Below are positions 7,471-31,440 of a DNA stretch of 64,000 nucleotides, one piece after another. A model generated the notes under the pieces. That model saw only the letters and a program-made list of their open reading frames with translations. It was not told the DNA's origin and did not search any database. Source of the DNA: Thiorhodococcus drewsii AZ1. Lineage in GTDB: Bacteria > Pseudomonadota > Gammaproteobacteria > Chromatiales > Chromatiaceae. The DNA lies in contig NZ_AFWT01000002.1 in NCBI RefSeq assembly GCF_000224065.1, positions 1 through 64,000 of the forward strand, given 5' to 3'. Position 1 is the stretch's first letter. Every line of letters begins with the position of its first letter. A program made the position numbers and the translations under genes.

Positions 7471-7493
7471 CCCGTTCTCCCGAATCGTGACGA

Positions 7494-7519
7494 CCTGTTC
7501 CGAGCCCGCTCGGGACAGG
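7494..7519 (-). promoter_or_regulatory. Inverted repeat in the leader of the binding protein-kinase operon
   Basis: Arms CCTGTTCCGAG (7494-7504) and CTCGGGACAGG (7509-7519) pair over 11 positions with one G-U type mismatch and a 4-nt loop. It lies 23 nt before the binding-protein start, so it could be an operator or a leader hairpin. Confidence 0.4.
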
Positions 7520-7701
7520 TTTGATAACGCATCAGTCTAGCTGAACCGCACCAGTCGCACGACCGGATCCCAGATCGGGCCGAGCCTTCGACCATGACTC
7601 GACTGAACTAAACCGCCTCTTACCTGCCGCGCCTTATTTTTTGAAATCCGATCACCATTGTTTCAGGCATGCGCGATTGGAAATGCTAAAGAGGGGTGCG
7701 T

Positions 7702-8493: not shown

Positions 8494-8537
8494 CTTGCAA
8501 CCCATAATCGGCATGGGTCGATGGGCGTGAACGAAAG

Positions 8538-8570
8538 CGCCCCCCAACAGCAACGCAACGTTGGGGGGCG
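8538..8570. terminator. Bidirectional hairpin between SDR and DUF4388-like gene
   Basis: Perfect 11-bp arms CGCCCCCCAAC (8538-8548) and GTTGGGGGGCG (8560-8570) separated by 11 nt lie between convergent genes. A short TGTTT follows on the plus strand. Confidence 0.65.
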
Positions 8571-8595
8571 TGTTTCACTCCACACCCCATATCGA

Positions 8596-9150
8596 TCAGC
8601 CGCTTAACTTAGACAGAACCAGTGTACGGAACTGCGCGGCTTGATCCGGCGAGGGGATTTCGCCGGCCAGGGCGTCGATGGCCGTGTTTAAATCGCTCGC
8701 CTGACGGAGATGATCCTCGGACAGAATCTCGGCGATCGGTCCGATGAACTCGACCAAGCACGCGACGAGCACGGACTTCTGAGGCTCCGTCAGCCCGGCC
8801 GCAACGGCAGGTGCCTCGCCGCCCTCGCGCCGATCCGATGCGCCTTCCCGAGAAGCCGCCGCCTCAAGTGCCGCCAGGATCGTCTCCGTCGGCGGCAGAT
8901 CCACACGAGGCAGGCCGGCCGGCCCCTCCTGAAACCGGTATCGACCCGCATGGATCTGCGCCATGCGCTCAAGCGCGGTCGTGCCGACCGTGTTGCTGAA
9001 GTAGAGATAGACGATCTTGCCATCCTCGATGGAGACCTGGGCACTGCGGTTCTCGTTCGTCGCGATAAAGAGCGTACCCGTCACCTGCTGCGACACGAGC
9101 CGCCGAATCTCCTCGACGATCTTGGCGAAAAGAATGTAGCCATCAGCCAT
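8596..9150 (-). CDS. DUF4388-like signalling protein
   Basis: A 184-residue soluble protein without signal peptide. Residues about 15-80 (TGTLFIAT...SIEDGKIVYLYFS...GRYRFQEG) match the pattern of DUF4388/PATAN-like domains that occur in regulators of cyanobacteria and delta-proteobacteria. A linker rich in charged residues follows, then a C-terminal helical segment (about 118-184, VEFIGPIAEILSED) reminiscent of DUF8082-type effector modules. The gene is 6 nt downstream of a sensor protein with no output domain, so the two may form one signalling unit. Function is otherwise unknown. Confidence 0.6.
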   Translation of the reverse strand: MADGYILFAKIVEEIRRLVSQQVTGTLFIATNENRSAQVSIEDGKIVYLYFSNTVGTTALERMAQIHAGRYRFQEGPAGLPRVDLPPTETILAALEAAASREGASDRREGGEAPAVAAGLTEPQKSVLVACLVEFIGPIAEILSEDHLRQASDLNTAIDALAGEIPSPDQAAQFRTLVLSKLSG

Positions 9151-9156
9151 AGTCGT

Positions 9157-10248
9157 TTACCGCTTACGCAATCGATCGAGCGCCATTTCCAGACTCACGC
9201 GCATCCGTTCGATGGCTCGCGCTAAGGCGCCAATTTCATCGCTTCGCTCGGTTTCGCCAACCGTGGTCTTGAAGCTGCCCCGGCTGATTTCATCCGCAGC
9301 GGCAGTCAATGCGCGGATCGGCGTACTGAGGCGTCTCGCCAGCAGCAAGGCGACCAGAAGCACGGCGATCAAGGTCGAACTCAGCAAGATCAGGGCATGG
9401 CGTTGCGCCTGATCGGCTGCCGCATAGGCCTCGCTGGCATCCTGCTGGACGATGAACTTCCACCCATGTTTCAAAACCTTGGTATAGGCGACGAAGCGTT
9501 TGCCTCCTTCCTCGAAGACGAAGGGCGCATCGCCCGGCTGCGAGTGCAGACGCGCGGCCGGATAGTCGCTGAAGTCCTGTAGCTCCGAAGAGATCTCGCC
9601 CGCGCCATGCGCGATGAGGCGGTTGTTCTCGTCGAGGAGGATCGCGTAACCCGTCTTGCCGATACGGGTGTTGGTGATCGTGCTGGAGAGATCCTCCAGC
9701 GTCATCGCAATCGCGATGACGCCTTGGGTATCGCCCGTATCGGCAAGTATCGGTTTCGCCAGAATGAATGCCGGCTTCTTCGAGGTCTTTCCGAGCAGGA
9801 CCTGCTGACCGATCGGCGCGCCCTCCATGACCTGTTTGAAGTAGGAGCGGTCGCCGTAAAAGGTCTGCGGCTTGCCATCGCTCCGGCCCAGATTTTTACC
9901 GTCGGGCGAAACCGTGAACGCCAGATAGATCCAGTCGTAGGTCTCGGCAACCGTCGCCAGCACCGGATCCTGAAGCCTGGCATCCATGCTGCGAATCGCC
10001 GGGGTACGGGCATTCTGGTCGAGCAGGCGTAGATTCGCCGCCGTCCAGTCCTCGACGCTACGGCCCAAGGCATCCGCAGTTTGACTCAGATTTTGCGCAA
10101 CGATCGCGCTCCATTCCAACCTGGATTCGTGGACGCTGATGTACCAGAGCCCGGTAATGGGAATGGTCGACACGACGACCATGGCGAGGAGTATCTGATA
10201 AAAGATGGTAAAGCGAAGGGGTTTACGCTGAGGCTCACGGCCTTCCAT
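9157..10248 (-). CDS. dCache-HAMP transmembrane sensor lacking an output domain
   Basis: A 363-residue membrane protein. A first membrane helix (about 15-38) is followed by a double-Cache periplasmic domain (about 45-285; FYGDRSYFKQVMEG, KPAFILAKPI, TGYAILLDENNRLIAHG and HGWKFIVQQ are typical signatures), a second helix (about 290-312) and a HAMP segment (about 313-362). The protein then stops; no methyl-accepting, kinase or GGDEF domain follows. dCache domains usually bind small ligands such as amino acids or organic acids. It is paired with the DUF4388-like gene 6 nt downstream. Confidence 0.85.
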   Translation of the reverse strand: MEGREPQRKPLRFTIFYQILLAMVVVSTIPITGLWYISVHESRLEWSAIVAQNLSQTADALGRSVEDWTAANLRLLDQNARTPAIRSMDARLQDPVLATVAETYDWIYLAFTVSPDGKNLGRSDGKPQTFYGDRSYFKQVMEGAPIGQQVLLGKTSKKPAFILAKPILADTGDTQGVIAIAMTLEDLSSTITNTRIGKTGYAILLDENNRLIAHGAGEISSELQDFSDYPAARLHSQPGDAPFVFEEGGKRFVAYTKVLKHGWKFIVQQDASEAYAAADQAQRHALILLSSTLIAVLLVALLLARRLSTPIRALTAAADEISRGSFKTTVGETERSDEIGALARAIERMRVSLEMALDRLRKR

Positions 10249-10357
10249 GTTGTTCTCCGGGATTCCAGAACAGGGGATCTTTCGATCCTAAAATTTGGAT
10301 CGACGCGAAGCAACGCGTACCTGTCGATCAATGATTAGGTTTGAACGACAGGGACGA

Positions 10358-11116
10358 CTACTTGGACGCACCCATGTGCGCGTCGAGAATCGCCCCGGCA
10401 TCGATCTTGGTCAGCCCCTCATCGAGTATCTCGCGCCATTTGGCGCCGGCTGCATTGTTGGCGAAGGCCGCATAGATATCCTTCATCTCCAGAAGGCGAT
10501 TGTTCATTCTGACCTTCGAAGAAACCGACTTCAGCCGTGGAGTGTTGGCGAGCAGATAGGCCATCACGTTGGAGTCGATGACCGCCGCATTCAGACGACC
10601 AGCAGCGACCTTGAGGATGTTCTGCGTATCCGTGCCCACCGCCTCGACCTTGATGCGCCCGGCGGCGACCAGATCATCGAACGCCTTGGTGTTGACGTAA
10701 TCTTGGACAACCCCGATCCGATAGCGTTCGAGATCCTCGACCTGCTCCCAGGTGATCGGCTTCGATACATTCTCCACCAACCCGAGCGGCCCCTCGCCGA
10801 GCGGCTCCGAGAACTGAAAATCCTCGGTCTCGTACTTGTACTCGGGCAGATAGGCAACGTACTTCGAATTCGGCTGCTGCACGAGCTTCACCGCGCGCGA
10901 CCAGGGATAGAACTCGACGACCAACTCGTGCCCCATCGCCTCCAGGGCAGCCTTGGCGACGGCGATCGCAGCGCCCTGATCGGGCAAGGCCGCGCCCGAG
11001 TATGGCGGCCATTCGAGCGAGGCCATATAGACCTTATCGGCCGCGGCCGACTGAAAGACGCCGGCCAGTACCAAGAAGACACTCAATAGCCAGGCATTGC
11101 GCGAATGCTGCTTCAT
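10358..11116 (-). CDS. Periplasmic solute-binding protein (SBP_bac_3 type)
   Basis: A 252-residue exported protein with a signal peptide ending near SAAADK (about residue 24). The body starts with VYMASLEWPPYSG, the usual opening of family 3 solute-binding proteins, and contains the GVVQDY and DSNVMAYLL segments typical of that fold. Start ATG 11116 was chosen for a strong AAGGGGG ribosome site. No ABC permease or ATPase genes are near; neighbours are a sensor and a chemoreceptor, so it may deliver ligand to one of them. Ligand unknown. Confidence 0.82.
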   Translation of the reverse strand: MKQHSRNAWLLSVFLVLAGVFQSAAADKVYMASLEWPPYSGAALPDQGAAIAVAKAALEAMGHELVVEFYPWSRAVKLVQQPNSKYVAYLPEYKYETEDFQFSEPLGEGPLGLVENVSKPITWEQVEDLERYRIGVVQDYVNTKAFDDLVAAGRIKVEAVGTDTQNILKVAAGRLNAAVIDSNVMAYLLANTPRLKSVSSKVRMNNRLLEMKDIYAAFANNAAGAKWREILDEGLTKIDAGAILDAHMGASK

Positions 11117-11198
11117 GCTTTCCCCCTTAAAGTGAACATATTTTTGATCGGAATGTCCTCTGGCAGCATCAGGATGCCAGACCGACATCCGACCCAGA

Positions 11199-12728
11199 TC
11201 AAAATCGGAACTTGGCAAACAGGGACTGCAGCCGGGTGACGCTGGTCGCAAGCGATTCGCCCGAGGCGCTCGTCGAATCCGATAGCACGACGGTCTTCTG
11301 ATGGACCTGCTGAATGCTGCTGACATTGCGGTCGATCTCGGCGACGGTCGAGCTCTGCTGCTCGGCGGCCGTGGCCACGCTGGTCATCATCTGAATGATC
11401 TGCTTGATCGCCTCATCGATCTCGGCGAACGCCTCACCCGCATCCGATGCCAGTTCGACACTTCGGGTCGACTTGAGCTTGCCCTGCGCCATCGTCTCGA
11501 CCGCCTGATAGGTGCGCTCGCGCAATCCCTCAATGGTCTCCTGTATCTGACGGGTCGAGTCCTGAGTGCGCTGCGACAGGGTGCGCACCTCGTCCGCGAC
11601 GACCGCGAACCCGCGCCCCTGCTCGCCCGCCCGCGCCGCCTCGATCGCCGCGTTGAGCGCCAACAGATTGGTCTGATCGGCAATGCCTCGGATCACATCC
11701 AGGATCCCGGTGATGGCCTCGGTGCTCTGTCTGAGTTCCGAGATCACGCCGGATGCCTCGTCAACGGTCGCGGCCAATTCGCTGTTGGATTCATTCGCCT
11801 CCCGGACCAGTTGCAGACCCGTCTCGGCACGCTTCCCGGCCTGCTCTCCCGACTCCGCGACCAACGCGGCGTTGCGCGCCACCTCGTCCGTCGTGGCACT
11901 GAACTCGGTGAGCGAGGTGGTCAGCATATAGAGATCTTCCTGCTGTTGGTTCAGCTGAAGATTGAGATCCTGGGTAATCCCCTTGGCCTGATGTGCCGAG
12001 CCGTTGAGCCCTTCGATGACCCCGTTTACCTGGGTCACGATGTCCCTGATCGAGGCGATGAATTGATTCAATGCCTGCGCCAGATGGCCAAGTTCATCCC
12101 GACGTGGCGACTCGACCCGTTTGGTCAGATCGCCCTCCCCCTCGGCGATGTCGCGCACGCGCAGAAGAATCTGATCGAGCGGCTTGAGCACCAAGCGGGT
12201 CAGCGCAAACCCCAGCGACAGGACCAACACCGCGTTGAGCACCAGCATAATGATAAGGTTGCGCACAATCGCATCGTGAACCGCCTGACGCAGAGGCTCC
12301 TCGGAAACGAACAGCACGACGGAGCCGATAGGATGATCCTCGCTTCCGTCCGAATAGCTCAATGTCCGCTCCACCTTGGTCGTCCTCGGCAGATCCGGCA
12401 AGGCATCGATCGTTTCGACCCCCTTCTCTCCCTGCGTCAGGCCGACCACAAGAGCGCCCTGCTCGTCCAGCACCACGACGCCGAGGATCGCCGGATGACT
12501 CATCTCTCCATGCAGGATGTCGTCGACCGTGGTCATAGAAAAATCCCACAGCGGCTTGGGCAAACCGAGCGCCAGACGATTCAGCACCGAGGAGACGTCG
12601 TGCTCCTGCCGCACCGTCTCGCTCGCCTTGATACGCATGACATCCCAGACGCCATAGGCCGCCAGCACCAGCGTAACAACGAGGATGAGGGCCAGGTTCA
12701 GGGTCGTTTTCAAACCGCTCTTGATCAT
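11199..12728 (-). CDS. Methyl-accepting chemotaxis protein
   Basis: A 509-residue chemoreceptor. Membrane helices at about 7-27 and 163-186 enclose a small periplasmic sensor (about 135 residues; [11 protein letters not shown] and [12 protein letters not shown]). HAMP follows ([16 protein letters not shown], about 208-225) and then the long coiled-coil signalling domain with the conserved tip [19 protein letters not shown] and [18 protein letters not shown]. No C-terminal CheR/CheB-binding NWETF-type pentapeptide is present (it ends LFAKFRF). It should control CheA through CheW; the core che operon lies 12 kb away on the same strand. Start ATG 12728 precedes [10 protein letters not shown]. 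Confidence 0.92.
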
Positions 12729-12952
12729 CGAAAAGGCACCGAGGTCGTTTGAGAGAAACAAGACGAGATCGCGACAACGAAACCGCGCATGAATACGAGG
12801 CCGAAGGTCCAGCCTGGATTGGGGCAGACTGCAATTGACATCGCCAAGGCACGCCAACGGCGGGTCGCGACCAAATCGAAGTCCAGCAGGCTGGCGACAA
12901 GGATCACGATCTTTGATTTGAAGAACAGTCGAACGCAGTGGATACGCGCGGG

Positions 12953-13870
12953 TTATCGGGACTCTCGAAGCACATCGACGGAATAGTCCCTTTCGACTTC
13001 GGGATCCAGATCATCGGACTCTGAATATTCCGAGATACGAACATAGTCGACCAGCATCCGTTGAGGCAAGGCATCAAGGTCGATCCCCTCCCGACCGCCC
13101 CAGCTTCCACCGACCGCCAGATTGAGGATGACATAGAATTCCTGGTCGAACGGCCACCACTCCCAGCCCTCGCCGTTGTTCTCCACTCGGAAGAAGCTCT
13201 CGTCGTCGACGAAGAACTCCATGGAATCCTCCAGCCACTCGACCGCATAGCGATGATAGACATCTGCGGCGTCCGCGATCTCGATTTGATCGGTGCGCTG
13301 ATTGCCGTTCTTGAAGTAAGCGGCCTTGCTGTGGACGGATGCATGAACGATTTCGGGTTCGAACCCGACCTGCTCGACGATGTCGATCTCGCCGCAGTTC
13401 GGCCAGTACCAGCCCTCATCCTGGTTCCAGCCATAGAGACTCGGATCGCTCGGCATCAGCCAGAAGGCCGACCAGGTTCCGCGCGCGTCGGGAAAACGGA
13501 TCCGTGCCTCGAAACGGCCATAGGTCGAGGCCCCCATCCCTCGCGAATTGATCCTAGCCGAGGTGAAGAGGCTGTCATCGTCTGGATCGACCTGGGCCTC
13601 GATCACGAGCCTGCCGTTCTCGACCCAGACGTTCTCGGGATCGTCGGTATAGGACTGGAGTTCATTGTTCACACGGCGGGGAGGCCAGTTCTCGATGTTC
13701 CATTTGGTCGCGTCCGGCGGTCCGACATAGTCGAACTCGTCGCTCCAGACGACATGCCAGTCGGCAAGCGCGACGGGCGCGAAGAGCGGACAGCACAGGA
13801 ACAGCAGACCCCCCATCGACGATTCCCGAGCGCCCCCGGGAGGACGGTGGATGCCTCGAGCGAAATTCAC
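12953..13870 (-). CDS. Secreted glycoside hydrolase family 16 beta-glucanase
   Basis: A 305-residue protein (287 from the internal start) with a signal peptide ending near PVALAD. The GH16 catalytic signature ExDxxE is seen as GEIDIVE around residue 160, after NELQSYT and [10 protein letters not shown] blocks and before VWSDEF-type N-terminal sequence. Such enzymes cut beta-1,3(4)-glucans. Two starts are possible: GTG 13870, which overlaps the glyoxalase stop as GTGA and gives a long n-region, or ATG 13816, which gives a short classic signal peptide. A polysaccharide hydrolase is unusual for a photolithotroph but base composition matches its surroundings. Confidence 0.88.
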
Positions 13871-18987: not shown

Positions 18988-19341
18988 GTGCAGACCAATG
19001 ATCCTGCCTCTAGGTTCGACAGGCTGCCAGCCCGCGACGAGTCGGCGGCCCTGACCAGTGCCGGCGGTGACGCCGAGCTGTCTACCGAACTGCTGCACGC
19101 CCTGCTCTCGGGGCTTCCCGCCGAGCTCGACGCACTACGCGACTCGCTCGGCGAATCCGACTGGCCCGGACTGGCCGAGTACGCGCATCAAATGCGAGGC
19201 GCCACCCGCTATTGCGGGGTTCCCGCGCTCGACGCGGCGATCGAGGCACTGGAGCGCGCGGCGCGCGTCGGCGATCCGGAGCGCTGCAACGAAGGGGTCC
19301 TACAGGTCGAGATCCAGGCGCAACGCCTCTCGGGCATCTGA
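18988..19341 (+). CDS. Stand-alone histidine phosphotransfer (HPt) protein
   Basis: A 117-residue HPt domain without other domains. The phospho-acceptor motif is YAHQMRGATRYCGVPAL with His about 67, closest in pattern to the HPt of BarA-type kinases. Start is GTG 18988 with AGAGGA 8 nt upstream. It lies divergent from cysM and about 1 kb from two receiver-like phosphatase/kinase proteins; those receivers lack the acceptor Asp, so its partners are probably elsewhere. Confidence 0.85.
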   Translation: MQTNDPASRFDRLPARDESAALTSAGGDAELSTELLHALLSGLPAELDALRDSLGESDWPGLAEYAHQMRGATRYCGVPALDAAIEALERAARVGDPERCNEGVLQVEIQAQRLSGI

Positions 19342-20471: not shown

Positions 20472-22220
20472 TCAGGACCACCAACGGTAGGATGCATCCG
20501 CGCGGCGCCCCCCTTCACTGTAAGTGAGGGATTCACACAACTCCTGCAGCAAGACGAGCCCCTCGCCCCAGGGGGGCGGCGGAAGGCAGTTCCCCTCCGA
20601 ATCGCAGCGGCACTCGAATCCCTTCCCACCGTGGCTCACACTCACCGCGAAGGCCCCGCCGTCAGCGTGTCGCAAATAGCGAATCTCGATTCGGATCCAA
20701 CCGGAACAGGATGTACCGCTCGCGGCCTCCGAGACCAAGAACTCGCCCGAAACGAGTGCGTCCGGTGAAACCTTGACGGCCCAGGGAGCCATGGATATTC
20801 CGTGCTCAAGCGCATTGGAATAGAGTTCGGCGACGATGATCTCCAGAGCCGGCACATGGGCGTCCAGTCCGTCAAGCAGTCCGAGCGGACGCAGCAGCGA
20901 ATCCACCGAGCGCATGGCGCTCAAACGCGCGTCGCGCAGCTCGATCGACCAGGTCCAACCACCAACCGGAAGTTTGCGCCAATCCGGTTCGGGGATGGAG
21001 AAGATGGACGTCTCGATCGGAATTTCGAGCACGGCGATATCGTCGACCTGATCGACGCCGGCACAATGCCGGTCAAGCGCCTCGATCAGCCCTGGAAAGA
21101 CCCGATCACCATACCGCCAATCATCGAGAACCCGATGCAGGCACATCTCCTTGAAGCGGTCCCCAGCCGTATTGCTCGCTTCGAGCAGGCCGTCGGTGAA
21201 CACTAACAGACGATCGCCCGGCCTAACGCTGATCTTGCGAGGAACATTGCCGTCGCACAGCTTGGGCAGAACCCCCAGCGGCAGGGCATGCGAGGACAGC
21301 TCATAGAGCCCCTCTGCCGTACGCAGCCAGGCACTGGGCATACCGCCATTCCACCAGTAGAGATACTGACTGCTGCTCGGAATCGAGATGAGGGTAGCCG
21401 ACATGAAGCGATCTGGCGGAAGCAGTGCATGCAGCTTGCGGTTGATCTCCTCCAGGACCTCGTCGTCCGAGACTCCCTTGGCCGTCATCGCATGAAATGC
21501 CTCCGCGACCGGGAGCGCACCGATCGTAGCCGCCAGGCCGTGCAAGGTGAAATCTCCCATCAGCATCCGCAGACCGCCGTCAGGAAGATGCTGGGTCAGC
21601 ACCAGATCGCCGTTGAACATGGCGGCGGCTCGCTGCTCCAGCGATAACAAATCGGCCACCACGTTGCGATTTCCGATCGCGCGACTGAAGACCCGTTCGG
21701 CCAGCGCCTGCTCCTGATGTTCCAACTCCAGGCGCTTAGTGAGCGGAGCACCGCTGGCAAAAACGGCGCGATGCAGGCTGCGGACGCGGTCCATGGCGAG
21801 GATTCGGGTCAGAAGCAGGTCGGCGCTGAAGGGCCACACCAGAAAATCGTCGCCGCCCGATTGGATACAGCCCATCAGGCTCTCCTCGTCTTGGGCACAG
21901 CAGACGAGTATCACGGGCACGAAATCCGCTCCCGCCATCGCCTTGATATATCGGATGGCGTCTTGGCCGCTCATGTCGGACATCTGAGCAGCCACCAGGA
22001 CGAGGGCCGGCCGAGTGCGCTCGAACAGAACCAGCGCCGCCTCTCCGCTCTCGGATTCCACCGGTTCGAACCGCTCAGCGCGCAGCATCTCGACCAGTTC
22101 GTGACGAACCTTGAAATCGCTGATGGCGGTCAAAACCGAACCGCGTCGCACCAGGCTTAAACCGGCAGCAACGCCCTGATCTTGATCTTGGCGTCCATCT
22201 CGAATGCTCCCCGACGACAT
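20472..22220 (-). CDS. Pseudo-receiver/PP2C phosphatase/HATPase protein, copy A (HsbR-like)
   Basis: A 582-residue three-domain protein. The N-terminal receiver-like domain (about 28-145) is degenerate: the phospho-acceptor Asp is replaced by Ala (PALVLVAAQMSD), the switch Thr/Ser by Cys (LVCC) and the conserved Lys by Trp (VWPFS). The SpoIIE-type PP2C phosphatase domain (about 190-390) keeps its metal Asp residues: FNGD, MGDFTLHG, TDGLLEAS and DDIAVLEI. The C-terminal HATPase domain has an N-box (ELYSNALEHG) but its G1 box reads SHGGKGF instead of DxGxG, so ATP binding is doubtful. GGAGG precedes ATG 22220. Last gene of the che-STAS run; predicted STAS phosphatase. Confidence 0.88.
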   Translation of the reverse strand: MSSGSIRDGRQDQDQGVAAGLSLVRRGSVLTAISDFKVRHELVEMLRAERFEPVESESGEAALVLFERTRPALVLVAAQMSDMSGQDAIRYIKAMAGADFVPVILVCCAQDEESLMGCIQSGGDDFLVWPFSADLLLTRILAMDRVRSLHRAVFASGAPLTKRLELEHQEQALAERVFSRAIGNRNVVADLLSLEQRAAAMFNGDLVLTQHLPDGGLRMLMGDFTLHGLAATIGALPVAEAFHAMTAKGVSDDEVLEEINRKLHALLPPDRFMSATLISIPSSSQYLYWWNGGMPSAWLRTAEGLYELSSHALPLGVLPKLCDGNVPRKISVRPGDRLLVFTDGLLEASNTAGDRFKEMCLHRVLDDWRYGDRVFPGLIEALDRHCAGVDQVDDIAVLEIPIETSIFSIPEPDWRKLPVGGWTWSIELRDARLSAMRSVDSLLRPLGLLDGLDAHVPALEIIVAELYSNALEHGISMAPWAVKVSPDALVSGEFLVSEAASGTSCSGWIRIEIRYLRHADGGAFAVSVSHGGKGFECRCDSEGNCLPPPPWGEGLVLLQELCESLTYSEGGRRADASYRWWS

Positions 22221-22282
22221 TGGATGGCCTCCAATCAAGGCTAAAGAATGGCCGATGGCTCGTCGAACCAGGGTCCGACACA

Positions 22283-24031
22283 CTACCAGCGGTAGAGTAC
22301 CTCGGCCTCGGAGCCATTGCGGCGAAAGACGAGCGATTCGCACAGCTGTCTCAAGAGCATGAGACCGCGCCCCCAGGGACACGCTGGATCCTGGTACAGA
22401 GTCTGGACATCGGTTGAGTCGAATCCGCTCCCGGAATCGCGGACACACATCCGAACCGAGCCACCCCCATCCGGACCGGGCTCATAGCCGATTCGGATCG
22501 AGACCATGCCACTGGCCTCCAAGGCCAAACGGCTGGAGCGCTCGCGATAATAGGCGTCGAAACCCTCTGGGGTCACCTTCATAATGGAGTCCAACTTGAG
22601 GACGCCGTGATCGAGTGCATTGGTGAAGAGTTCGGCCAAAATGGTCTCCAGCACCCCCTGCTGCACCTCCAAACCATCTAGGAACCCCAGCGGCTTAAGC
22701 GCCGATTCAAGCGTCGGCTGATTGCACAATCGCGCGCCCTCAAGATCTAACGACCAGCTCCAGCCGGTGGTCGGACAGACCGTCTCAGGCCCAGGCTCGG
22801 GCACCATGAAATTCGGATCGAGCGGAATTTCCAATGCGGCGATGTCGTCCAACTGTTCTGCGCCCTGACAGTGCCGATCCAGCGCGGCAATGAGCCCTGG
22901 CAGGATGGGTGCGTCATCCTGCCAGGAATGCAGGACCGAATCGAACGCGGCATTGATGAACATGACGCCATCGCGGCCGCTCGCCTCCAGCAATCCGTCG
23001 CTCATCATTAGAATTCGATCCCCGCCGCACAAATGGACGCGACGCGGAATCTCCTGGGCCGGAAGCTCCGGCAGGATTCCCAGTGGCAGCGCATGCGAAG
23101 TCAGCTCGGTCAGCCCGGACCTGGTTCGCAACCAGGCGCTGGGCATACCACCGTTCCACCAGCGCACCGCCTCTCCATTGCCGGGTAAGGAAACGAGACA
23201 GGCCGCCATGAAACGATCGGCCGGCAGCAACTGGTAGAGTTTACGGTTGATCTCGCCCAGGAGCTGTGAATCAGTCACGCCCTTGCGGGTCATGGTGTGG
23301 AAGACATCCGCCACCGGCAGTACCCCGACCGCCGCCGCAAGGCCATGCCCGGTAAAGTCACCCAGCAGCACGCGCAGCCCGCCGTCCGGCAAGAACTGGC
23401 TCAGCATCAAATCGCCGTTGAAGATGGCGGCCGGACGCTGAACCAACCCCAGCCGATCCATGGCGACGTTGCGACTGCGCACCGCGTGACTGAGCAGATG
23501 CTCGGCCAACTCCTGGTCCTCGCGATCGCGTTGCAGGTGTGCCGCCAAGACCTTCTGCCTGTCAGCATGGGCTCGGTGCAGATCGCGCACCCGCTCCGAC
23601 ACGAGGATCCGGGCCTTGAGACGCCCCGCGCTCACCGGCTTGGAGACGAAATCGTCCCCACCGGCATCGGTCGCGCGCCGGATAACCGCACGCTCGTCCG
23701 AGTCGCTCAAGACGATGAGCGGAGTAAACCCACTACCGGCGCATTGCTTGATCCGTCGCACGGTCTCGAAATCGGCGGCTCTCGCGGGATCGACATTCAA
23801 CAGAACGATATCGGGCCGCTCTCGCTCGAACAGCGACAAGGCGGTCTCGCCATCGGCGGCAAGCAGGACCCGAAAACCCTCGAGCTGGAGGGTCTGGCGC
23901 AGTCGGTCGCGCTCGGAGGCGTCCGGATCGAGTATGAGAGCCGTTCCCCGGGAGAAGGTCTCGACCGACGCACCCCGAGCCTGGGATGCGGGCAGACGCG
24001 ACACCTCTGGAGGCAAGTCCGATCCTGTCAT
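22283..24031 (-). CDS. Pseudo-receiver/PP2C phosphatase/HATPase protein, copy B (HsbR-like)
   Basis: A 582-residue paralogue of the next gene downstream. The receiver-like domain (about 30-145) has Asn in place of the phospho-acceptor Asp (PDIVLLNVD) but keeps DPD near the N-terminus and the Lys (SKPVS). PP2C motifs are intact: FNGD, LGDFTGHG, SDGLLEAS, DDIAALEI. The C-terminal RsbW-like HATPase domain looks functional with ELFTNALDHG, DSGSGFD and GRGLMLL. It could therefore both phosphorylate and dephosphorylate a STAS partner, encoded only 10 nt upstream. Architecture matches HsbR of Pseudomonas and, in content, SypE of Vibrio. Confidence 0.9.
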   Translation of the reverse strand: MTGSDLPPEVSRLPASQARGASVETFSRGTALILDPDASERDRLRQTLQLEGFRVLLAADGETALSLFERERPDIVLLNVDPARAADFETVRRIKQCAGSGFTPLIVLSDSDERAVIRRATDAGGDDFVSKPVSAGRLKARILVSERVRDLHRAHADRQKVLAAHLQRDREDQELAEHLLSHAVRSRNVAMDRLGLVQRPAAIFNGDLMLSQFLPDGGLRVLLGDFTGHGLAAAVGVLPVADVFHTMTRKGVTDSQLLGEINRKLYQLLPADRFMAACLVSLPGNGEAVRWWNGGMPSAWLRTRSGLTELTSHALPLGILPELPAQEIPRRVHLCGGDRILMMSDGLLEASGRDGVMFINAAFDSVLHSWQDDAPILPGLIAALDRHCQGAEQLDDIAALEIPLDPNFMVPEPGPETVCPTTGWSWSLDLEGARLCNQPTLESALKPLGFLDGLEVQQGVLETILAELFTNALDHGVLKLDSIMKVTPEGFDAYYRERSSRLALEASGMVSIRIGYEPGPDGGGSVRMCVRDSGSGFDSTDVQTLYQDPACPWGRGLMLLRQLCESLVFRRNGSEAEVLYRW

Positions 24032-24041
24032 CACGAAAATA

Positions 24042-24347
24042 TCAGTCGAGTGTAAACAGCTTTCCGAAGTTGGCGATCTTGAGCACGCGACGCACGTCGT
24101 CCGCACAGCCACCGATCGTCACGCGCGACGGATTACCTCCGGCAAATTCGCGCAACAGCAACAGCATGCCCAATGCGGAACTGTCCAGATAAGAGGCCCC
24201 GGAGAGGTCGACGAGGAACCGTGTCGAATTGGGATCCTTGTCCTTATAGGCATCGCGAAACGCCTTGTGCTGTGCGAAATCGAAACGACCATCGACGATG
24301 ATCGTGACCAGATTTTTGTCCTGGTCGACCCTAGATGTAATGCCCAT
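24042..24347 (-). CDS. STAS-domain anti-sigma factor antagonist (HsbA-like)
   Basis: A 101-residue single STAS domain. The phosphorylatable serine region is YLDSSALGMLLLL (Ser about 57-58), preceded by FLVDLSGA as in SpoIIAA and RsbV relatives. In partner switching, its phosphorylation by a HATPase kinase and dephosphorylation by a PP2C phosphatase decide whether it binds an anti-sigma factor or another target. Both enzyme activities are encoded immediately downstream and the gene is 30 nt after cheB, tying the switch to chemotaxis. Confidence 0.92.
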   Translation of the reverse strand: MGITSRVDQDKNLVTIIVDGRFDFAQHKAFRDAYKDKDPNSTRFLVDLSGASYLDSSALGMLLLLREFAGGNPSRVTIGGCADDVRRVLKIANFGKLFTLD

Positions 24348-24377: not shown

Positions 24378-25454
24378 TCAGAGCATCCGCTTCGCCACCG
24401 AACCCCGGAGTAGCGCGTCGGCAACCCCGCCTATCGGGACAACCTCCACCGCCGCACCACGTTTAACCGCTTCGCCCGGCATGCCCCAGACGACGCTGGT
24501 CGCCTCATCTTGGGCGATCGTATAGACCCCGAGATCCCTCAGCTCCTTGAGCCCCTGAGCGCCATCGGCGCCCATGCCGGTCAAAAGGGCCACGCAGGCA
24601 TTCTTTCCCGCCGACTGGGCGACCGATCGAAAGAGCACGTCCACGCTCGGTCGATGCCGATTCACCAGCTCGCCCTGAGTGAGACGACAACTGTAGCGCC
24701 CCCCGTCCCGGACCAGCAGCAAATGCCGATCGCCAGGAGCAATGTAGACATGGCCCGGCATGACACGGTCGCCCTCGGCCGCCTCCTTCACCACGAGACC
24801 CGTCAGCCGATTCATGCGTTCGGCGAAGGCCGCGCTGAAACCGGGCGGGATATGCTGGCCGATCACGACGCCGGGCGCGTCGGGAGGCAACCCCAGCAGC
24901 ACTTCCTTGATCGCTTCCGTCCCTCCAGTCGAGGCCCCGATGGCTAACACTCGATTGCTCGCCCAGCCCGAGGGAGCCTTGGGCTTCGGAAGCACCGAGC
25001 CCACTGCGGAGGCTTGAGGCGGGCTGGAACGCGCGGTCAGCGGACGCACCCGCACAGCCGCAGCCATTCGAACCTTCTCCACCAATTCCGCTCCGTAAGC
25101 CTCAAGAGCATGGGCGAGATCGCGGCCCGGCTTGCGAACGAAATCGACCGCGCCCAATTCCAGCGCACGCAGCGTCACCTCGGCCCCGCGCTCGGTCAGC
25201 GACGACACCATCACCACCGGCATGGGACGCAACCGCATCAGGTTCTGCAGGAAGGTCAGGCCGTCCATGCGCGGCATTTCGACATCGAGCGTCAGAACGT
25301 CGGGATTGAGTTCCTTGATCCGGTCGCGCGCCACGAACGGATCTTGGGCCGTACCCACCACCTCGATATCCGGTTCCTGGGACAAGATCTCGGAGAGGAT
25401 CTTTCTTACCAAGGTCGAATCATCGACCACCAACACACGAATCGGTTTGGTCAC
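24378..25454 (-). CDS. cheB: Chemotaxis protein-glutamate methylesterase
   Basis: A 358-residue CheB. The N-terminal receiver has VVDDS, phospho-acceptor Asp in LTLDVEMPRMDG (about 57) and RKP. The C-terminal esterase shows catalytic Ser in GASTGG, His in GQHIPPGF and Asp in TGMGADGA. It removes methyl groups from, and deamidates, chemoreceptors to provide adaptation. It starts 7 nt after the receptor gene stop, inside the che run. Confidence 0.96.
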   Translation of the reverse strand: MTKPIRVLVVDDSTLVRKILSEILSQEPDIEVVGTAQDPFVARDRIKELNPDVLTLDVEMPRMDGLTFLQNLMRLRPMPVVMVSSLTERGAEVTLRALELGAVDFVRKPGRDLAHALEAYGAELVEKVRMAAAVRVRPLTARSSPPQASAVGSVLPKPKAPSGWASNRVLAIGASTGGTEAIKEVLLGLPPDAPGVVIGQHIPPGFSAAFAERMNRLTGLVVKEAAEGDRVMPGHVYIAPGDRHLLLVRDGGRYSCRLTQGELVNRHRPSVDVLFRSVAQSAGKNACVALLTGMGADGAQGLKELRDLGVYTIAQDEATSVVWGMPGEAVKRGAAVEVVPIGGVADALLRGSVAKRML

Positions 25455-25461
25455 AGTTGCC

Positions 25462-26661
25462 TCAGAACAGCTCTATGTCACCTTCATGCATGGACGTCTG
25501 GCTCACCGGACGGTGAACCGCCGCAATCAGCTGCTCGCGCAGCACCTCCAGCCGAGCCTTGGCCTGGGCGAGGTCCTCGTCCGAGCGAGCCTGCCCCATC
25601 GGAATCTGCTTGAGTTCTGCGACGAAGCGATCGATGAAATCGATGCGCATCTCGGCCTGCGCCAGCACCTGGCGCGAGATGTCCTCGAACTGCAACAGAC
25701 GCACCGCCGAGTCGACGTTACCCTGGATGCGATCCACAACCGAGGACAGTTGGACGAGTCCATCGGCGATCATGGTATTGAGCCCCTGGACCTTGACGAT
25801 CATCTCGTCCATCGCGCCCTTGGCCGTAATGGAGGTATTGAGATCCTGCGAGGCCATTTCACCGACGATGTTGCGGGTCTCGTCGAAAACACCCTGGGCC
25901 CGTTCCGCTTGATCGCGAATCTGGTCGTTGAAATCTGCTGCATCCTGCGAGAGCTTCCGCACCTCCTGTGCGACCACAGCAAATCCCCGCCCCGCCTCGC
26001 CCGCGCGAGACGCCTCGATCGCCGCATTGAGCGCCAGCAGATTGGTCTGGCGGGCGATGCGTTTCGATCCCTCGAGGCTAATAAAGATCTCGCTCATCTG
26101 GGTCGAGAGATCGTCGATCTGATGGGCCACCTGCACACTGTGCTTCCCCATATCGATCAAACGATCGACGTTTTCGGCCAGCAGGTCGCTGTTGGCAGAC
26201 AGGAAGGCGTTGACATCGACCAGATCGTCAGGATCGTCGGAGGAATTGGCACTACGAGATACGAGATTGAGCACCAGTTGCTGTTGCGCCTTGGACTCGT
26301 CGGATAGACCATTAAAACTGACGTGCAGATCACTGGCGGCATGGGAAATCAGCGAGGATGCCTGATCGAGGAGATCGCGTAGTTCCTTCATCTGAGGCCC
26401 GATCAGCCGATCCGTTTCGACCACCAGATTCCAGAGTTCGCGCTCGCCAGGGCGACTGCTCTGGCCGCTCGCACTCGGGGCCAACCGAGCCGTTCCGGTA
26501 TCCGGCACCTCCTTTTTCAGAAGCACGGTCCCCAACCAAACGGCGGTCACGAGGACCAGATTGAGCCAAGGCGCAAGCACGCCGGGGAGCAACACAGACT
26601 GTAGAATCAAGACTGCGGCGATGACCAGGGGCAGCCAATAGGGTTTCAATTTGCCCAACAC
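25462..26661 (-). CDS. Methyl-accepting chemotaxis protein without periplasmic domain
   Basis: About 399 residues from GTG 26661, which has AAAGGAGG just upstream (an ATG at 26697 is possible but lies before that site). Two adjacent membrane helices (about 5-45) form a hairpin with no periplasmic sensor, so it must sense inside the cell or membrane. The signalling domain tip is [20 protein letters not shown] with [16 protein letters not shown]. The last residues are HEGDIELF, almost the same as the end of CheD encoded by the preceding gene. Embedded between cheD and cheB, it is probably the receptor most tightly linked to this pathway. Confidence 0.93.
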
Positions 26662-26715
26662 GAGACCTCCTTTCGAGCAGTATCCATTCGCCGCCATTTC
26701 GAAGTATGGACGGCA

Positions 26716-27327
26716 TTATGAGAAGAGTTCGACATCGCCCTCGACCCGCGACTGACGCAACGTCTCGCTGTAACTGAGTTCGCGCTCGATGATGGTGTCG
26801 TTGTGCAGACTGCGCAGCTTCTTCACCAGGACACGTCCGGTCGCGGGGAAAAAATAGACCTTGCGTGGATGATTCCCCAGAAGATCCTTGGCGACGACCG
26901 GAACACCCTCCGTCGCCAGGTAGTCCATAACGAAACGCGCATTGCGCTCGCCAACCACGTGATTTTTGAAACCGGGCAGGACATTGCCTCCTCCGAAGAC
27001 TTTCGCCTCCAAATGTGCGCGACGGGCACCGAGCTTGAGCAATTGGTTGATCAGGATCTCCATGGCATAGTCGCCGTAGCGCATGGAGCGTCCAAAGCGG
27101 CTGTCCTCGTCGCGCTTGTCGTCGGGCAACATGAAATGATTGATGCCGCCGATGCCGCTGATGCGATCGCGAATGCAGGCTCCCACGCAGGAGCCGAGCA
27201 CGGTCACCATCAGTAACTCTCGGGTCGATACGTAATATTCCCCAGGGAGAATTTTGACCGCATCCATGTCGAAATTGCGGTCGTAGTAGAGATTGGGCGC
27301 CAGAACTTCCTCGAAACGCTGTTGCAT
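26716..27327 (-). CDS. cheD: Chemoreceptor glutamine deamidase
   Basis: A 203-residue CheD, which deamidates receptor glutamines to glutamates. The catalytic Cys lies in VLGSCVGACI, the His in GGINHFMLP, and the family block AKVFGGGNVLPGF is present. Start ATG 27327 (MQQRFEEVLAP) is preferred over a TTG at 27348 that overlaps cheR. The C-terminus VEGDVELFS parallels the receptor encoded next. The first 25 residues before the core are typical of longer proteobacterial CheD. Confidence 0.93.
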   Translation of the reverse strand: MQQRFEEVLAPNLYYDRNFDMDAVKILPGEYYVSTRELLMVTVLGSCVGACIRDRISGIGGINHFMLPDDKRDEDSRFGRSMRYGDYAMEILINQLLKLGARRAHLEAKVFGGGNVLPGFKNHVVGERNARFVMDYLATEGVPVVAKDLLGNHPRKVYFFPATGRVLVKKLRSLHNDTIIERELSYSETLRQSRVEGDVELFS

Positions 27328-27338
27328 CTTGACCTGTC

Positions 27339-28166
27339 TCAGTTGCAAACGGTGGGGGCGTAGACGGTCTTGCCTTGTAGACGAAACAGCTCCGCCACAT
27401 GCGTCAGACTCTCCGAATGCCCAACGAAGAGCCGTCCGTCCTGACGCAACAGCGGATGGAATCGCGCCAAGATCTTGGCCTGCGTCTGCTTATCGAAATA
27501 GATCATGACATTGCGACAAAAGATGGCGTCGAATGGCCCCTTCATCGGCCAGCGGTCCTCCAACAGATTCAAGGCTTGAAAACGTACCAGCGCGCTCACC
27601 TCCGGACGAACGCGCGCCATGCCTTTGTGTGGGCCCTTGCCGCGCAGGAAGAAACGCTTGACGTCGGCCTCCGGCATCTTCTCGATGCGTTCGAGCGGAT
27701 AGATACCCCGCGCCGCCTGCTGAACGACATTGGTATCCAAATCGGTCGCCAGAATCTTCACCGGCGGCCTCCAGGACTCAAAGGCGTCGATCATGGTCAT
27801 CGCCATCGAGTAAGGCTCCTCGCCCGTCGAACAGGCGGAGGACCAGAGCATGACCGGAGCGCGCCCTTGACGCCTGGCATCCAACGCGACCTGAGCCAAC
27901 ACCGGGAAATGGTGTGCCTCTCGGAAAAAGGACGTCAGGTTGGTCGTCAGCGAATTGATGAACGACTGCCATTCCTCGGGGTTGGCATCCAGGTGATCAA
28001 GGTAGTCATCGAAGGATTTCAGACCGTTCGCCCGCAGCCGCCGTGCGATCCGGCTATAGACCATATCGACCTTGGCCGCGCTCAGCGAGATCCCAGCGTG
28101 CGCGTAGATAAGCGAACGAATCCGCTCGAAATTCCGATCTGTGAAGAGAAACTCGCGCTCATTCAT
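27339..28166 (-). CDS. cheR: Chemotaxis protein-glutamate methyltransferase
   Basis: A 275-residue CheR that methylates receptor glutamates with S-adenosylmethionine. The helical N-domain (FERIRSLIYAHAGISLSAAK...YSRIARRLR) is followed by the catalytic domain: NLTSFFREAHHF, SSACSTGEEPYSMAM (SAM binding), ILATDLDTNV, FCRNVMIYF and FVGHSESL. Length is normal. It follows cheW after a 108-nt gap with no visible gene. Confidence 0.96.
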   Translation of the reverse strand: MNEREFLFTDRNFERIRSLIYAHAGISLSAAKVDMVYSRIARRLRANGLKSFDDYLDHLDANPEEWQSFINSLTTNLTSFFREAHHFPVLAQVALDARRQGRAPVMLWSSACSTGEEPYSMAMTMIDAFESWRPPVKILATDLDTNVVQQAARGIYPLERIEKMPEADVKRFFLRGKGPHKGMARVRPEVSALVRFQALNLLEDRWPMKGPFDAIFCRNVMIYFDKQTQAKILARFHPLLRQDGRLFVGHSESLTHVAELFRLQGKTVYAPTVCN

Positions 28167-28274
28167 GGGCCGAGAGACGCATCGGACGCCGAGAACGGAA
28201 ATGCATCAAGCACCATGACCTCCTGTCCGCAGGGAAACCCTCTACCATGAACGCCCTCGCCGCTCCTTGAGCGT

Positions 28275-28781
28275 CTAAGCGGTCAGCTGCGATTGCTCCA
28301 CCAGGCCCATCTCGCTACTGGTCATGAGCCGCTCAATATCGACCATGATGATCATGCGCTCGTCCAACGTCGCGAGCCCATCGATATAATCCGTGTCCAG
28401 CACGGCGCCAAACTCGGGCGCCGGTCTGACCTGCTCCCGACTCAGCGCGATCACGTCCGAGACGCCATCCACCACGATTCCCAACACCCGACCCGCGATG
28501 TTGAGAATGATGACGACAGTGAAGGCGTCATACTCGACCTGCCCCAGATTGAATTTGAGGCGCATATCGATGATCGGGACGATCACGCCCCGCATGTTAA
28601 TGACCCCTTTGATAAAGGTCGGCGAGTTGGCGATCTTGGTCACGGCGTCATAGCCGCGAATCTCCTGCACCTTCAGGATATCGATCCCGTATTCCTCGTC
28701 ACCCAAGGTGAAGGTCAGATATTCCTGCGAATCTTCGCTGCGGGGCAAAGCGCCGTTATTGCGTTCTTCGTTCATGTTCAT
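28275..28781 (-). CDS. cheW: Chemotaxis coupling protein CheW
   Basis: A 168-residue CheW linking receptors to CheA. After an unstructured start of about 17 residues the fold begins with [24 protein letters not shown], followed by [20 protein letters not shown] and a C-terminal [10 protein letters not shown]. The conserved Glu and Arg used for CheA and receptor contacts are present. It sits 37 nt after cheA. Confidence 0.96.
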
Positions 28782-28818: not shown

Positions 28819-31041
28819 TCATGCCGCCTTGCGGTTGAGTCTTACTAGGGCGTCCACGTCAAGTATCAGCGCTACCCGCCCATCGCCCATAATGGTCGCG
28901 CCCGAGACGCCCTCCACCTTGCGGTAGTTGGTCTCGAGACTCTTGATGACCACCTGATGCTGAGCCACCAGCTCGTCGACCTGAAGCGCGGCGCGTCCCT
29001 CGGCCGTATCCACGATCACCAGGATGCCGTCATCCTGCTGAACACCTGCCGCGCTGAGATGGAAGACGTCGCGCAGCACGATCAGCGACAGGTACTCTCC
29101 GTTCACGTGCACCACTCGGCCACGTCCGGAAATCGACTTGAACTGCTCTTGACGCGGCTGAATGGATTCCTGGATGGCGGTCATCGGCAGGATGAAGATC
29201 TCCTCGCCCATGCGCACCGAGAGTCCATCGAGAATCGCCAGCGTCAGAGGTAGACGAATCGTGAGATGGGTCCCCTGCCCAGGATAGGAATCGATATCGA
29301 CACGACCGTTCATCTCCTCAATGTTGCGTCGAACGACATCCATGCCAACGCCGCGCCCCGAGATGTCGGTGACCTTCTCTGCGGTCGAGAAGCCGGGATG
29401 GAAGATGAGCTGCCAGACCTCCTTGTCCGATGGATTGTCCGGCATCGGGATCCCCTGCGCTTCAGCCTTGGCCAGCAGCTTGTCTCGATTCAGTCCGCCA
29501 CCGTCGTCCGTCACCTCGACCACGACGCTTCCACCACGATGGCTCGCCCGCAGGATGATCTCGCCTCTCTCGGGCTTACCCGCCTCGCGCCGCCGTTCGG
29601 GCAGCTCGATGCCGTGATCGATGCTGTTGCGCACCAGATGATTGAGCGGATCGGCCAAACGCTCGATCAACCCCCGGTCGAGTTCCGTATCCTCGCCGAT
29701 CAATTTGAGCGACACCTGTTTTCCGAGCGTCGCCGCCGTGTCGCGGACCACCCGTGGGAAACGGTTGAAGACGAAACTGATCGGCATCATGCGAATCGAC
29801 ATGACCGCCTGCTGCAGATCCCTGGAGTTGCGTTCCAGATTGGATAGACCGCTGAAGATACGGTCGTTGAGCACCGGATCGAGCAGGGACGCAGACTCGG
29901 CCAGCATGGCATGGGTGATGACCAGCTCACCAACCAGATTGATGAGCTGATCCACCTTCTCGACGCTGACCCGAATGGACGAATCGCCCGTCGCTGCACG
30001 TTTGGCCGGCGCTGCCGCGCCTTTGTGGGAGGTGGCATCGGACACGGGCCGATCACTGGCTCCGGCCTGATGCGTCGAAACCGCCTCACCCTTGGGCTCC
30101 GGCGCCCCAGGCGAGGTCGCGAAGAAGCCATAGCCCCGCTGCTGCTCGACCCGCTCGGAATCGGCAACGGCGACGACCTCTCCCATCCCCGGATTGCCGC
30201 CGAAAAGCCCGAACCCATCGCCCTCCTGATCGGAAAGCACCTCGCTTCCAGGCGCGTCGGCGAAGAATCCGAAACCGGCATCGTCCTGATCCGACGGCGT
30301 CTCGTCCACCACATGCTCGCTTCCGGGCGCACCCTCAAAGAAACCGAAGCCGTCATCCTCGGAGTCCAACGCATCGGCACGGACCGACACATCCTCAAGA
30401 TCGCAAACGAAGGCGAAGGTCTCAAGCACGGCCTCGCGATCGAGGCGCGTCGTGAGGCGCCAGACGCAAGGCGCCGAGGCATCCTCGCTCAGAACCTCCA
30501 GACGCCCGACCTCAGTCAGCGCGTCCTTCAACGTCTGAGGATCCGAGCCTGGTTGAAGCTGCAAACTCTCAGGATGGAATTCGATCAGCCACGCCATCTC
30601 GTCCGTAGCGCCCCGAACGTTCGGATCGGCGGTCGCAACGGAGAGTCCGGCCTCGGTCCCCGCCAACGCGTCGAGCGTGCCGCACACCTGCGCGATACGC
30701 GGATCGTCGAACTCGCCCCCCTCTTGATGCGCCGCCAGCTGAGCCTTCAAGACGTCGCCAGCCTCCAGGAAGGTATCGATCATCTCGACGGTCGGACGCA
30801 TCTCCTCCTTGCGCAAGCGATCGAGAAGGGTCTCAAGGACATGGGTGACGTTCGCCATATCGGAAAAACCGAAGGTACCCGCCCCGCCCTTGATGGAATG
30901 TGCCGCTCGAAAGATCGCGTTGAGCGTTTCGAGATCGGGCGCATCGACATCGAGCTCCAAAAGCAGACTTTCCATCGCGCCCAGATGCTCGCTCGCTTCC
31001 TCGAAGAACACCTGATAGAACTGACTCATGTCGATGGTCAT
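28819..31041 (-). CDS. cheA: Chemotaxis histidine kinase CheA
   Basis: A 740-residue kinase. P1 HPt domain with His48 in [16 protein letters not shown]3 dimerisation near 345-400; ATPase domain with [25 protein letters not shown] and [13 protein letters not shown]-terminal CheW-like P5. Instead of a compact CheY-binding P2 domain, residues 120-345 are a long linker carrying four short repeats: GFGFF at 231-235 and 256-260, GFGLF at 276-280 and GYGFF at 303-307, each followed by a Pro-Gly turn and acidic residues. These may be CheY or CheB docking sites. Starts 33 nt after cheY. Confidence 0.96.
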
Positions 31042-31074: not shown

Positions 31075-31440
31075 TCAGCCAATAACCTTGCGGACGACCT
31101 CAAGCAGCTTCTGCGGATCAAAGGGCTTGACCAGCCAGCCGGTAGCGCCCGCAGCGCGACCTTGGCTCTTCATGGTGTCGCTCGATTCGGTGGTCAACAT
31201 CAGAATCGGCACGGAGCGGTATTGCGGGAGCCCACGCAATTGCTTGATGAGGCTGAGACCGTCCAGACGTGGCATGTTCTGATCGGTGAAGATGAGGTTG
31301 AAATTTCCGGCACGGGCCTTGTCCAGGCCATCTTGGCCGTCAACCGCCTCCGTCACCGAGTACCCGGCCCCCTTCAAGGTGAAGGACACCATCTGACGGA
31401 TTGACGGAGAATCGTCCACTGTAAGTATCGTTTTGGCCAT
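31075..31440 (-). CDS. cheY: Chemotaxis response regulator CheY
   Basis: A 121-residue single receiver: VDDS at 8-11, phospho-acceptor Asp in FTDQNMPRLDG (about 53), Thr in MLTTESS and Lys in VKPFDP. It carries the CheA signal, in flagellated cells to the motor switch. It is the first gene of the minus-strand che run, so the operon promoter should lie just above 31440. No cheZ is seen in the window. Confidence 0.95.
   Translation of the reverse strand: MAKTILTVDDSPSIRQMVSFTLKGAGYSVTEAVDGQDGLDKARAGNFNLIFTDQNMPRLDGLSLIKQLRGLPQYRSVPILMLTTESSDTMKSQGRAAGATGWLVKPFDPQKLLEVVRKVIG

Follow-up and report, generated by a model that had tools for sequence, protein, structure and literature searches.

The chemosensory operon of Thiorhodococcus drewsii AZ1 raises the question of how a serine partner switch is controlled when neither of its two regulators appears to have a phosphorylatable receiver. 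The operon lies on the minus strand of the window, the whole stretch of 64,000 nucleotides analysed here (positions 1 to 64,000 of contig NZ_AFWT01000002.1), to which coordinates refer unless a locus or contig is named. Open reading frame (ORF) positions and Pfam matches gave the gene order cheY-cheA-cheW-cheR-cheD-MCP-cheB-STAS-C1-C2 (MCP, methyl-accepting chemotaxis protein), so a STAS gene and two PP2C/HATPase genes follow cheB, as the original prediction made from this DNA had stated. C1 (22283..24031, minus strand) and C2 (20472..22220, minus strand), called copy B and copy A in that prediction, are tandem genes for proteins of 582 aa each, with start codons taken from the sequence, and share 44% identity. 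We consider it likely, with considerable room for doubt, that gene duplication here divided a bifunctional CrsR-type switch into a kinase, C1, and a phosphatase, C2. Gene layout, residues, distribution and the ratio of nonsynonymous to synonymous substitution rates (dN/dS) of each domain were observed directly and are described below.

Receiver, phosphatase and kinase domains of C1 and C2

Both N-terminal domains match the Pfam family Response_reg above its cut-off of 30.2 bits (C1, 55.8; C2, 42.8). In the alignment, the receiver of C1 (23600..23947, minus strand) has D35 as the first acidic residue, P36 in place of the second, N79 at the acceptor position (codon AAT at 23795-23797), S109 and K131. 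The corresponding positions of the C2 receiver (21795..22142, minus strand) are I33, S34, A77 (acceptor codon GCT at 21990-21992), C107 and W129. With P36 and N79 in C1 and five of five catalytic positions lost in C2, neither protein has a phosphorylatable receiver such as that shown for HsbR. The predicted replacement of the acceptor Asp by Asn in C1 and Ala in C2, and the loss of the switch Thr/Ser and Lys from C2, were thus confirmed, and the second acidic residue is gone from both receivers, which had not been claimed. The alignment is ungapped through beta-3 in both proteins and places no alternative Asp at the acceptor position. In structure models, which were poor overall (mean pLDDT, predicted local distance difference test, 51.2 and 56.8, from three-sequence alignments) and were used for the position of beta-3 only, N79 of C1 sits close to where beta-3 (75-80) stops, and A77 is the end of beta-3 (73-77) in C2. 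The best structural match of the C1 model was Pseudomonas RssB (3eq2), with Z 20.9 and a root-mean-square deviation of 13.6 over 345 residues.

Two candidate rescues of receiver chemistry were rejected. A second Asp does not serve as the acceptor: the alignment register is fixed by the first copy of a related genome, G049, which holds the acceptor Asp and, two positions further on, an additional Asp. Asp35 of C2 is not a surviving metal ligand, as the MAFFT register and the Pfam coordinates set it one place past the acidic pair; formally, a local one-residue shift may still be allowed there. Loss of Asp phosphorylation is well supported by the alignment for both receivers and, judged by their residues, both C1 and C2 are pseudo-receivers as defined in section 5 of PMC12632262. 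Unorthodox chemistry that keeps the receivers switchable, e.g., deamidation of Asn79 of C1 to Asp, is highly improbable in our view. An acceptor Asn able to revert to Asp is described for a receiver in PMC4395418, and Ser109 and Lys131 are kept in C1, but the second acidic residue is missing from C1, and all five residues are missing from C2.

The PP2C metal-binding Asp residues are kept in both copies (DDDD in each by motif alignment), as predicted. The HATPase domains had been taken as equivalent, and this did not hold: HATPase_c_2 scored 29.0 bits in C1 and 16.5 bits in C2, against a cut-off of 27.4. The N, G1 and G2 boxes are intact in the C1 domain (22286..22762, minus strand), whereas in the C2 domain (20475..20957, minus strand) Glu and Asn of the N box are retained, and His530 replaces the G1 Asp and Glu553 the G2 Arg. 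The G1 Asp in this fold contacts ATP, and C2 is predicted to be kinase-dead or impaired. In summary form, the receiver, kinase and phosphatase motifs read D-P-N-S-K / ENDGGGG / DDDD in C1 and I-S-A-C-W / ENHGGGG / DDDD in C2. All three domains of the receiver-PP2C-HATPase order are above their Pfam cut-offs in C1 (SpoIIE, 115.6 bits); in C2 the receiver and SpoIIE (108.7 bits) are above and HATPase_c_2 is below, and intact GHKL serine kinase motifs are found in C1 only.

The STAS gene (24042..24347, minus strand) ends 10 bases before the start of C1. It codes for a protein of 101 aa of the anti-sigma antagonist type, CrsA/HsbA-like (Pfam STAS_2 1.8e-10, STAS 2.5e-8), with the motif LDSSALG and candidate phosphorylation sites at Ser56/57; the locus of C1 and C2 thus includes an adjacent antagonist with a DSS phosphorylation site. 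Of 26 STAS proteins recovered at loci of the family, 25 have DSSALG and one has DSSAMG; elsewhere, DSSALG is present in 16 of 18 STAS rows.

Distribution in relatives, phylogeny and selection

We searched 210 genomes of the family with C2. Matches at E <= 1e-70 occurred in 88 genomes, and 12 had a tandem pair: G000 (the window's genome), G049, G146, G160, G090, G113, G181, G100, G022, G121, G070, and G031. A sample of 369 genomes taken across the class gave 82 with a match at E <= 1e-40. In total, 61 loci were compared: 40 family loci, Thiospirillum jenense (L011), and 20 further loci drawn from the class-wide sample and the family matches, one of which (L101) belongs to the family. In scoring receivers, D or E was accepted at the acidic pair and T or S at the switch position.

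The split lineage, as we use the term, comprises seven genomes of genera g1, g23, and g32 (window, G049, G100, G022, G121, G070, and G031). Among its first copies, no receiver is intact (0/7), and the HATPase motifs are intact in all six copies that have the domain. Among its second copies, receivers are intact in four of seven (G022, G070, G100, and the fused G031; the others are the window, I-S-A-C-W, G049, D-A-D-F-R, and G121, D-G-D-T-K), and HATPase motifs in none of the six with the domain. The PP2C Asps are intact in 14/14 copies. For HATPase_c_2, the six first copies with the domain scored 25.5-31.3 bits, three of them above the cut-off; of the second copies, the window scored 16.5 and G049 18.3, and four gave nothing at E <= 1. 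Response_reg scores were 47.5-69.7 bits in the same six first copies; among second copies they were 84.1-106 in G100, G022, G121, and G070, with lower values for G049 (60.5) and the window (42.8). On these motifs, the combination of degenerate receiver and degenerate kinase is inherited in the split lineage, and its second copies, whose kinase motifs are broken, have the look of phosphatases. In G031, both copies are fused (L065, contig C15, 5023-7560) into an 845-aa receiver-PP2C-receiver-PP2C protein without HATPase, whose first receiver is degenerate (G-A-E-T-E) and second intact (D-D-D-S-K).

The single-copy full-length homologs compared from the family served as controls, and their receivers (13/13) and HATPase motifs (13/13) are intact. 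Five of five more distant family homologs are also intact in receiver and kinase motifs, and so are the receivers of 12/12 homologs made up of receiver and PP2C only. As scored here, dead receivers do not characterise the family as a whole. The 20 further loci contributed 22 proteins, with intact receivers in 20 (exceptions L095, L096 (Thr->Ala)) and intact HATPase motifs in 17 of the 20 that have the domain (exceptions L090, L094, L101). In the five pairs of genus g57, receivers are intact in 5/5 first and 4/5 second copies (exception, the second copy of G160, Lys->Ile), and HATPase motifs in 3/4 first and 5/5 second copies; HATPase_c_2 scored 30.6-33.4 bits in the four g57 second copies scanned. 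The first copy of G181 (g57), whose assembly has 14% contamination, is split over two frames, and its C-terminal piece, which has intact kinase motifs, stands outside the count.

A PP2C-domain tree was built from 76 of 77 homolog sequences and 230 columns. The first copies of the split lineage formed one clade (support 100), its second copies another (99), and all 12 second copies together a clade with support 71. Forcing the split lineage to have a duplication of its own cost a deltaL of 28.2; it was excluded by the bootstrap proportion (bp-RELL, 0.039) and the expected likelihood weight (c-ELW, 0.038), with p 0.057 in the approximately unbiased (AU) test, 0.067 in the Kishino-Hasegawa and 0.094 in the Shimodaira-Hasegawa test. 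A single ancestral duplication is favoured by the tree but not proven, and a duplication inside the split lineage is disfavoured.

Selection was estimated as NG86 dN/dS between the window and G049, where dS of 0.92 to 1.81 makes the values rough. For C1 the ratios were 0.195 (receiver), 0.124 (PP2C), and 0.308 (HATPase), and for C2 they were 0.437, 0.223, and 0.220, respectively. The second copies of G121 and G070 gave 0.188, 0.163, and 0.400 for the same domains. Every domain is below 1, the least constrained being the C2 receiver in g1 and the dead HATPase of G121/G070. These values bear on the explanation that the locus is decaying, C1 being a constitutive kinase left after the chemosensory input was lost and C2 becoming a pseudogene. 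Such decay would agree with the C2 receiver having the highest ratio measured, with a che cluster that is truncated in G121, and with the Aer2-like receptor that relatives carry between cheW and cheR and that has no counterpart there in the window. It is quite unlikely in our view: both reading frames are intact in the window and in G049, the C2 PP2C and HATPase ratios are low (0.223 and 0.220), and the PP2C Asps persist throughout the split lineage.

Several results weigh against a division into kinase and phosphatase, to which we return below. The first copy of G049 keeps the acceptor Asp and Lys (S-P-D-V-K), and that of G113 (g57) has the G1 Asp replaced by His next to an intact receiver, which does not fit the split. 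Neither half of the G031 fusion has a HATPase domain, which leaves G031 with either a kinase at another place or none. Because the seven pairs are related to one another, their counts are not independent events, and no P value is given. The AU test leaves room for a duplication within the split lineage, and the C2 receiver ratio of 0.437 may reflect relaxed constraint. Because the PP2C domain is intact in C1 too, C1 may not be kinase-only. Likewise, the C2 HATPase may still bind ATP or a partner, since it is still under purifying selection in g1 (dN/dS 0.220) and only the G1 Asp and G2 Arg are changed among the motifs checked.

Chemosensory context

As in the window, the pair lies downstream of cheB and STAS in a che cluster in G049, G100, G022, G070, and G031 (in G100, cheY is outside the fetched stretch). 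In G121 (L059, C22:27000-46500), the cluster at positions 6780-13100 is reduced to cheW and cheR plus mere fragments of cheD and cheB, and STAS-C1-C2 is kept. No cheA was found at this locus, nor any CheA match at E <= 1e-120 in the genome, a draft assembly in about 390 contigs. This genome weakens the case for CheA as an obligatory input and is a natural test of the need for CheA.

The original prediction had proposed input by protein contact, perhaps with CheA, CheW or CheD. As an explanation in which both proteins stay bifunctional and their pseudo-receivers are switched by contact with one of these or another protein, we regard it as unlikely. Both receivers are still above the Pfam cut-off, the C1 receiver dN/dS of 0.195 fits a retained binding role, the two genes share an operon with cheA-cheB, and protein contact is named among possible pseudo-receiver mechanisms in section 19 of PMC12632262. 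However, the kinase motifs are degenerate in C2 and in the five other second copies of the split lineage that have the domain, and G121 keeps its pair without the CheA match. Control by contact with CheA, CheW or CheD as such is possible, and reading C1 and C2 as a locked kinase and a phosphatase is simpler and fits the relatives. A related idea, that the chemosensory array signals to a general-stress partner switch with no phosphotransfer involved, is rather doubtful; here the paralogous pseudo-receivers of the kinase and the phosphatase would dock Che proteins or each other, and the enzyme recruited would set the phosphorylation of STAS.

An Aer2-like receptor is encoded between cheW and cheR in G022, G018, G057, G160, G031, G070, G100, G113, and G090; in G131 an Aer2-like match lies nearby, with flanks outside the fetched stretch. 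No Aer2-like match was found in the operons of G000, G049, G146, and G121, and in the window the gap between cheR and cheW (28166-28275) lacks such a gene; the best full-length match of the window's genome (40%) lies elsewhere, at G000:C133:71232-73421. A tie between a degenerate C2 receiver and the missing receptor would suit G000, G049, and G121, but is not claimed because the G146 operon has no Aer2-like match and yet intact receivers.

A STAS gene does not lie beside every homolog, and that expectation was rejected. Of the 61 loci, 18 gave no STAS row, among these L053, L055, L060 (three g57 pairs outside any che cluster), eight g27 loci, and five distant family loci.

Proposed mechanism and candidate target

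From these observations we infer which enzyme activity each protein has, in which direction the switch works, and what it targets. The ancestral regulator would have combined a receiver, a serine phosphatase, and a serine kinase, of the CrsR-CrsA/HsbR-HsbA type, in a chemosensory operon; its gene would then have been duplicated and the activities divided between the two genes. C1, with a non-phosphorylatable receiver, would stay in an unphosphorylated-like, kinase-on state and phosphorylate the serine of the STAS DSS motif. C2, having lost the G1-box Asp and kept PP2C, would only dephosphorylate STAS. First copies with dead receivers and intact kinase motifs are read as locked kinases because of the logic of HsbR, reported to have kinase activity in its unphosphorylated form and phosphatase activity once phosphorylated (PMC6482189), and because SypA is reported to stay largely phosphorylated with the acceptor-less SypE D192A (PMC3610818). 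In the sister lineages (G022, G070, G100, and the fused G031), phosphorylation of the intact C2 receiver probably sets the phosphatase activity. In the window's genus, the receiver input of C2 would also have decayed, and the balance might be set by expression, ligand, protein contact or C1-C2 pairing. The phosphorylation state of STAS would lead to release or capture of a target. PMC6482189 reports that both CrsR and HsbR target RpoS, which by analogy may be the target here; the window's genome encodes RpoS (440.6 bits, cut-off 378.7).

According to the abstract and section 4 of PMC12632262, pseudo-receivers make up about 6% of bacterial receivers, and their activation and inactivation mechanisms are called a mystery. 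The present family offers a graded series: single-copy switches that are intact, pairs that are largely so, pairs in which one receiver and one kinase are dead, and, for the window's genus, pairs with both receivers degenerate. The role of a receiver past phosphorylation thereby becomes directly testable with natural proteins, and the series suggests how a bifunctional switch enzyme could split into opposing enzymes.

Comparison with known systems

SiaA of Pseudomonas aeruginosa is not known to have a receiver. The SiaA-SiaB-SiaC system resembles the window in having a separate phosphatase and kinase act on one antagonist-like protein, which in the window is predicted from motifs; SiaA (PP2C) and SiaB (kinase) are distinct proteins, whereas C1 and C2 are paralogs of one three-domain protein (PMC7647112).

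HsbR/HsbA and SypE/SypA had been named as the known relatives. Both are similar, but the closest system is CrsR-CrsA, encoded within the che1 locus of Shewanella oneidensis as described in PMC9855816. Both loci are chemosensory, the window having the order cheY-A-W-R-D-mcp-B-STAS-C1-C2; Shewanella has one CrsR where the window has two tandem copies (PMC9855816). In the window, moreover, both receivers and one kinase domain are degenerate, and the operon has no Aer2-like gene. HsbR-HsbA of P. aeruginosa likewise joins receiver, PP2C, and kinase/anti-sigma domains in one protein with a STAS-type antagonist, phosphorylated on Ser56 in HsbA; the HsbR receiver, however, is a working HptB target, in contrast to the two dead-receiver copies of the window (PMC6482189). 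In SypE-SypA of Vibrio fischeri, too, a STAS protein is acted on by a serine kinase, a receiver, and a PP2C domain, but the kinase is N-terminal, the receiver is central, and the system controls a polysaccharide locus from outside a che operon (PMC3610818).

The layout also resembles a stage-1 F7 chemosensory cluster as described in PMC7184735, with STAS and phosphatase genes inside a cheY-A-W-R-D-B cluster. Compared with that description, the window has no aer2-like gene and no first antagonist gene, one cheW, an MCP gene that precedes cheB, and two phosphatase genes. Neither duplication with complementary loss in a CrsR-type regulator nor a split or double-pseudo-receiver CrsR/HsbR was found in the open-access literature, a coverage that excludes the primary CrsR papers.

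Other architectures and neighbouring genes

Outside the family, G503 has two homologs on different contigs, each with its own STAS gene. At L094 (7605-9257) the receiver is intact and the kinase degenerate, while at L095 (8237-10057) the receiver and PP2C are degenerate and the kinase intact; this is suggestive only of a perhaps independent split. At L084 and L085 (G548 and G325, also outside the family), a full-length receiver-PP2C-HATPase gene is followed by a receiver-PP2C-only copy, both with intact receivers, which suggests another route to an extra phosphatase. The g27 loci (L066-L073) code for receiver-PP2C proteins without HATPase beside a receptor gene, with intact receivers, and several have a further receiver ORF; no cheA match was seen in the fetched g27 loci, and no STAS was found there.

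Searched with C1, the genome of the window gave 54 places at E <= 0.001. Only C1 and C2 matched at full length, and the other 52 matched only inside query residues 9-249, around the receiver. Promoter-like and terminator-like sites were not above shuffled sequences (3 vs 2.7 and 7 vs 9.4, respectively).

Upstream of the STAS gene, all on the minus strand, are cheB (24378..25454; CheB_methylest, 8.6e-63), a short MCP gene (25462..26697; MCPsignal, 7.5e-23), cheD (26716..27348; CheD, 2.8e-34), cheR (27339..28166; CheR, 3.8e-59), and cheW (28275..28781; CheW, 1.8e-39). They are preceded by cheA (28819..31041), in which Pfam found the Hpt, dimerisation, HATPase_c, and CheW domains, and by cheY (31075..31440; Response_reg, 4.3e-27), with D-D-D-T-K intact. 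At the C2 end, the run is bounded by a convergent fliL-like gene (Pfam FliL, 5.2e-26). A second, separate STAS gene of this genome lies near a SpoIIE-family phosphatase at G000:C110:44169-46861. Near the C1/C2 pair and convergent with it, the plus strand codes for a stand-alone histidine phosphotransfer (HPt) protein (18988-19341; Pfam Hpt, 2.4e-11), and several relatives have a similar ORF close to their fliL-like gene; the HPt protein is a possible phosphodonor in relatives whose receivers are intact.

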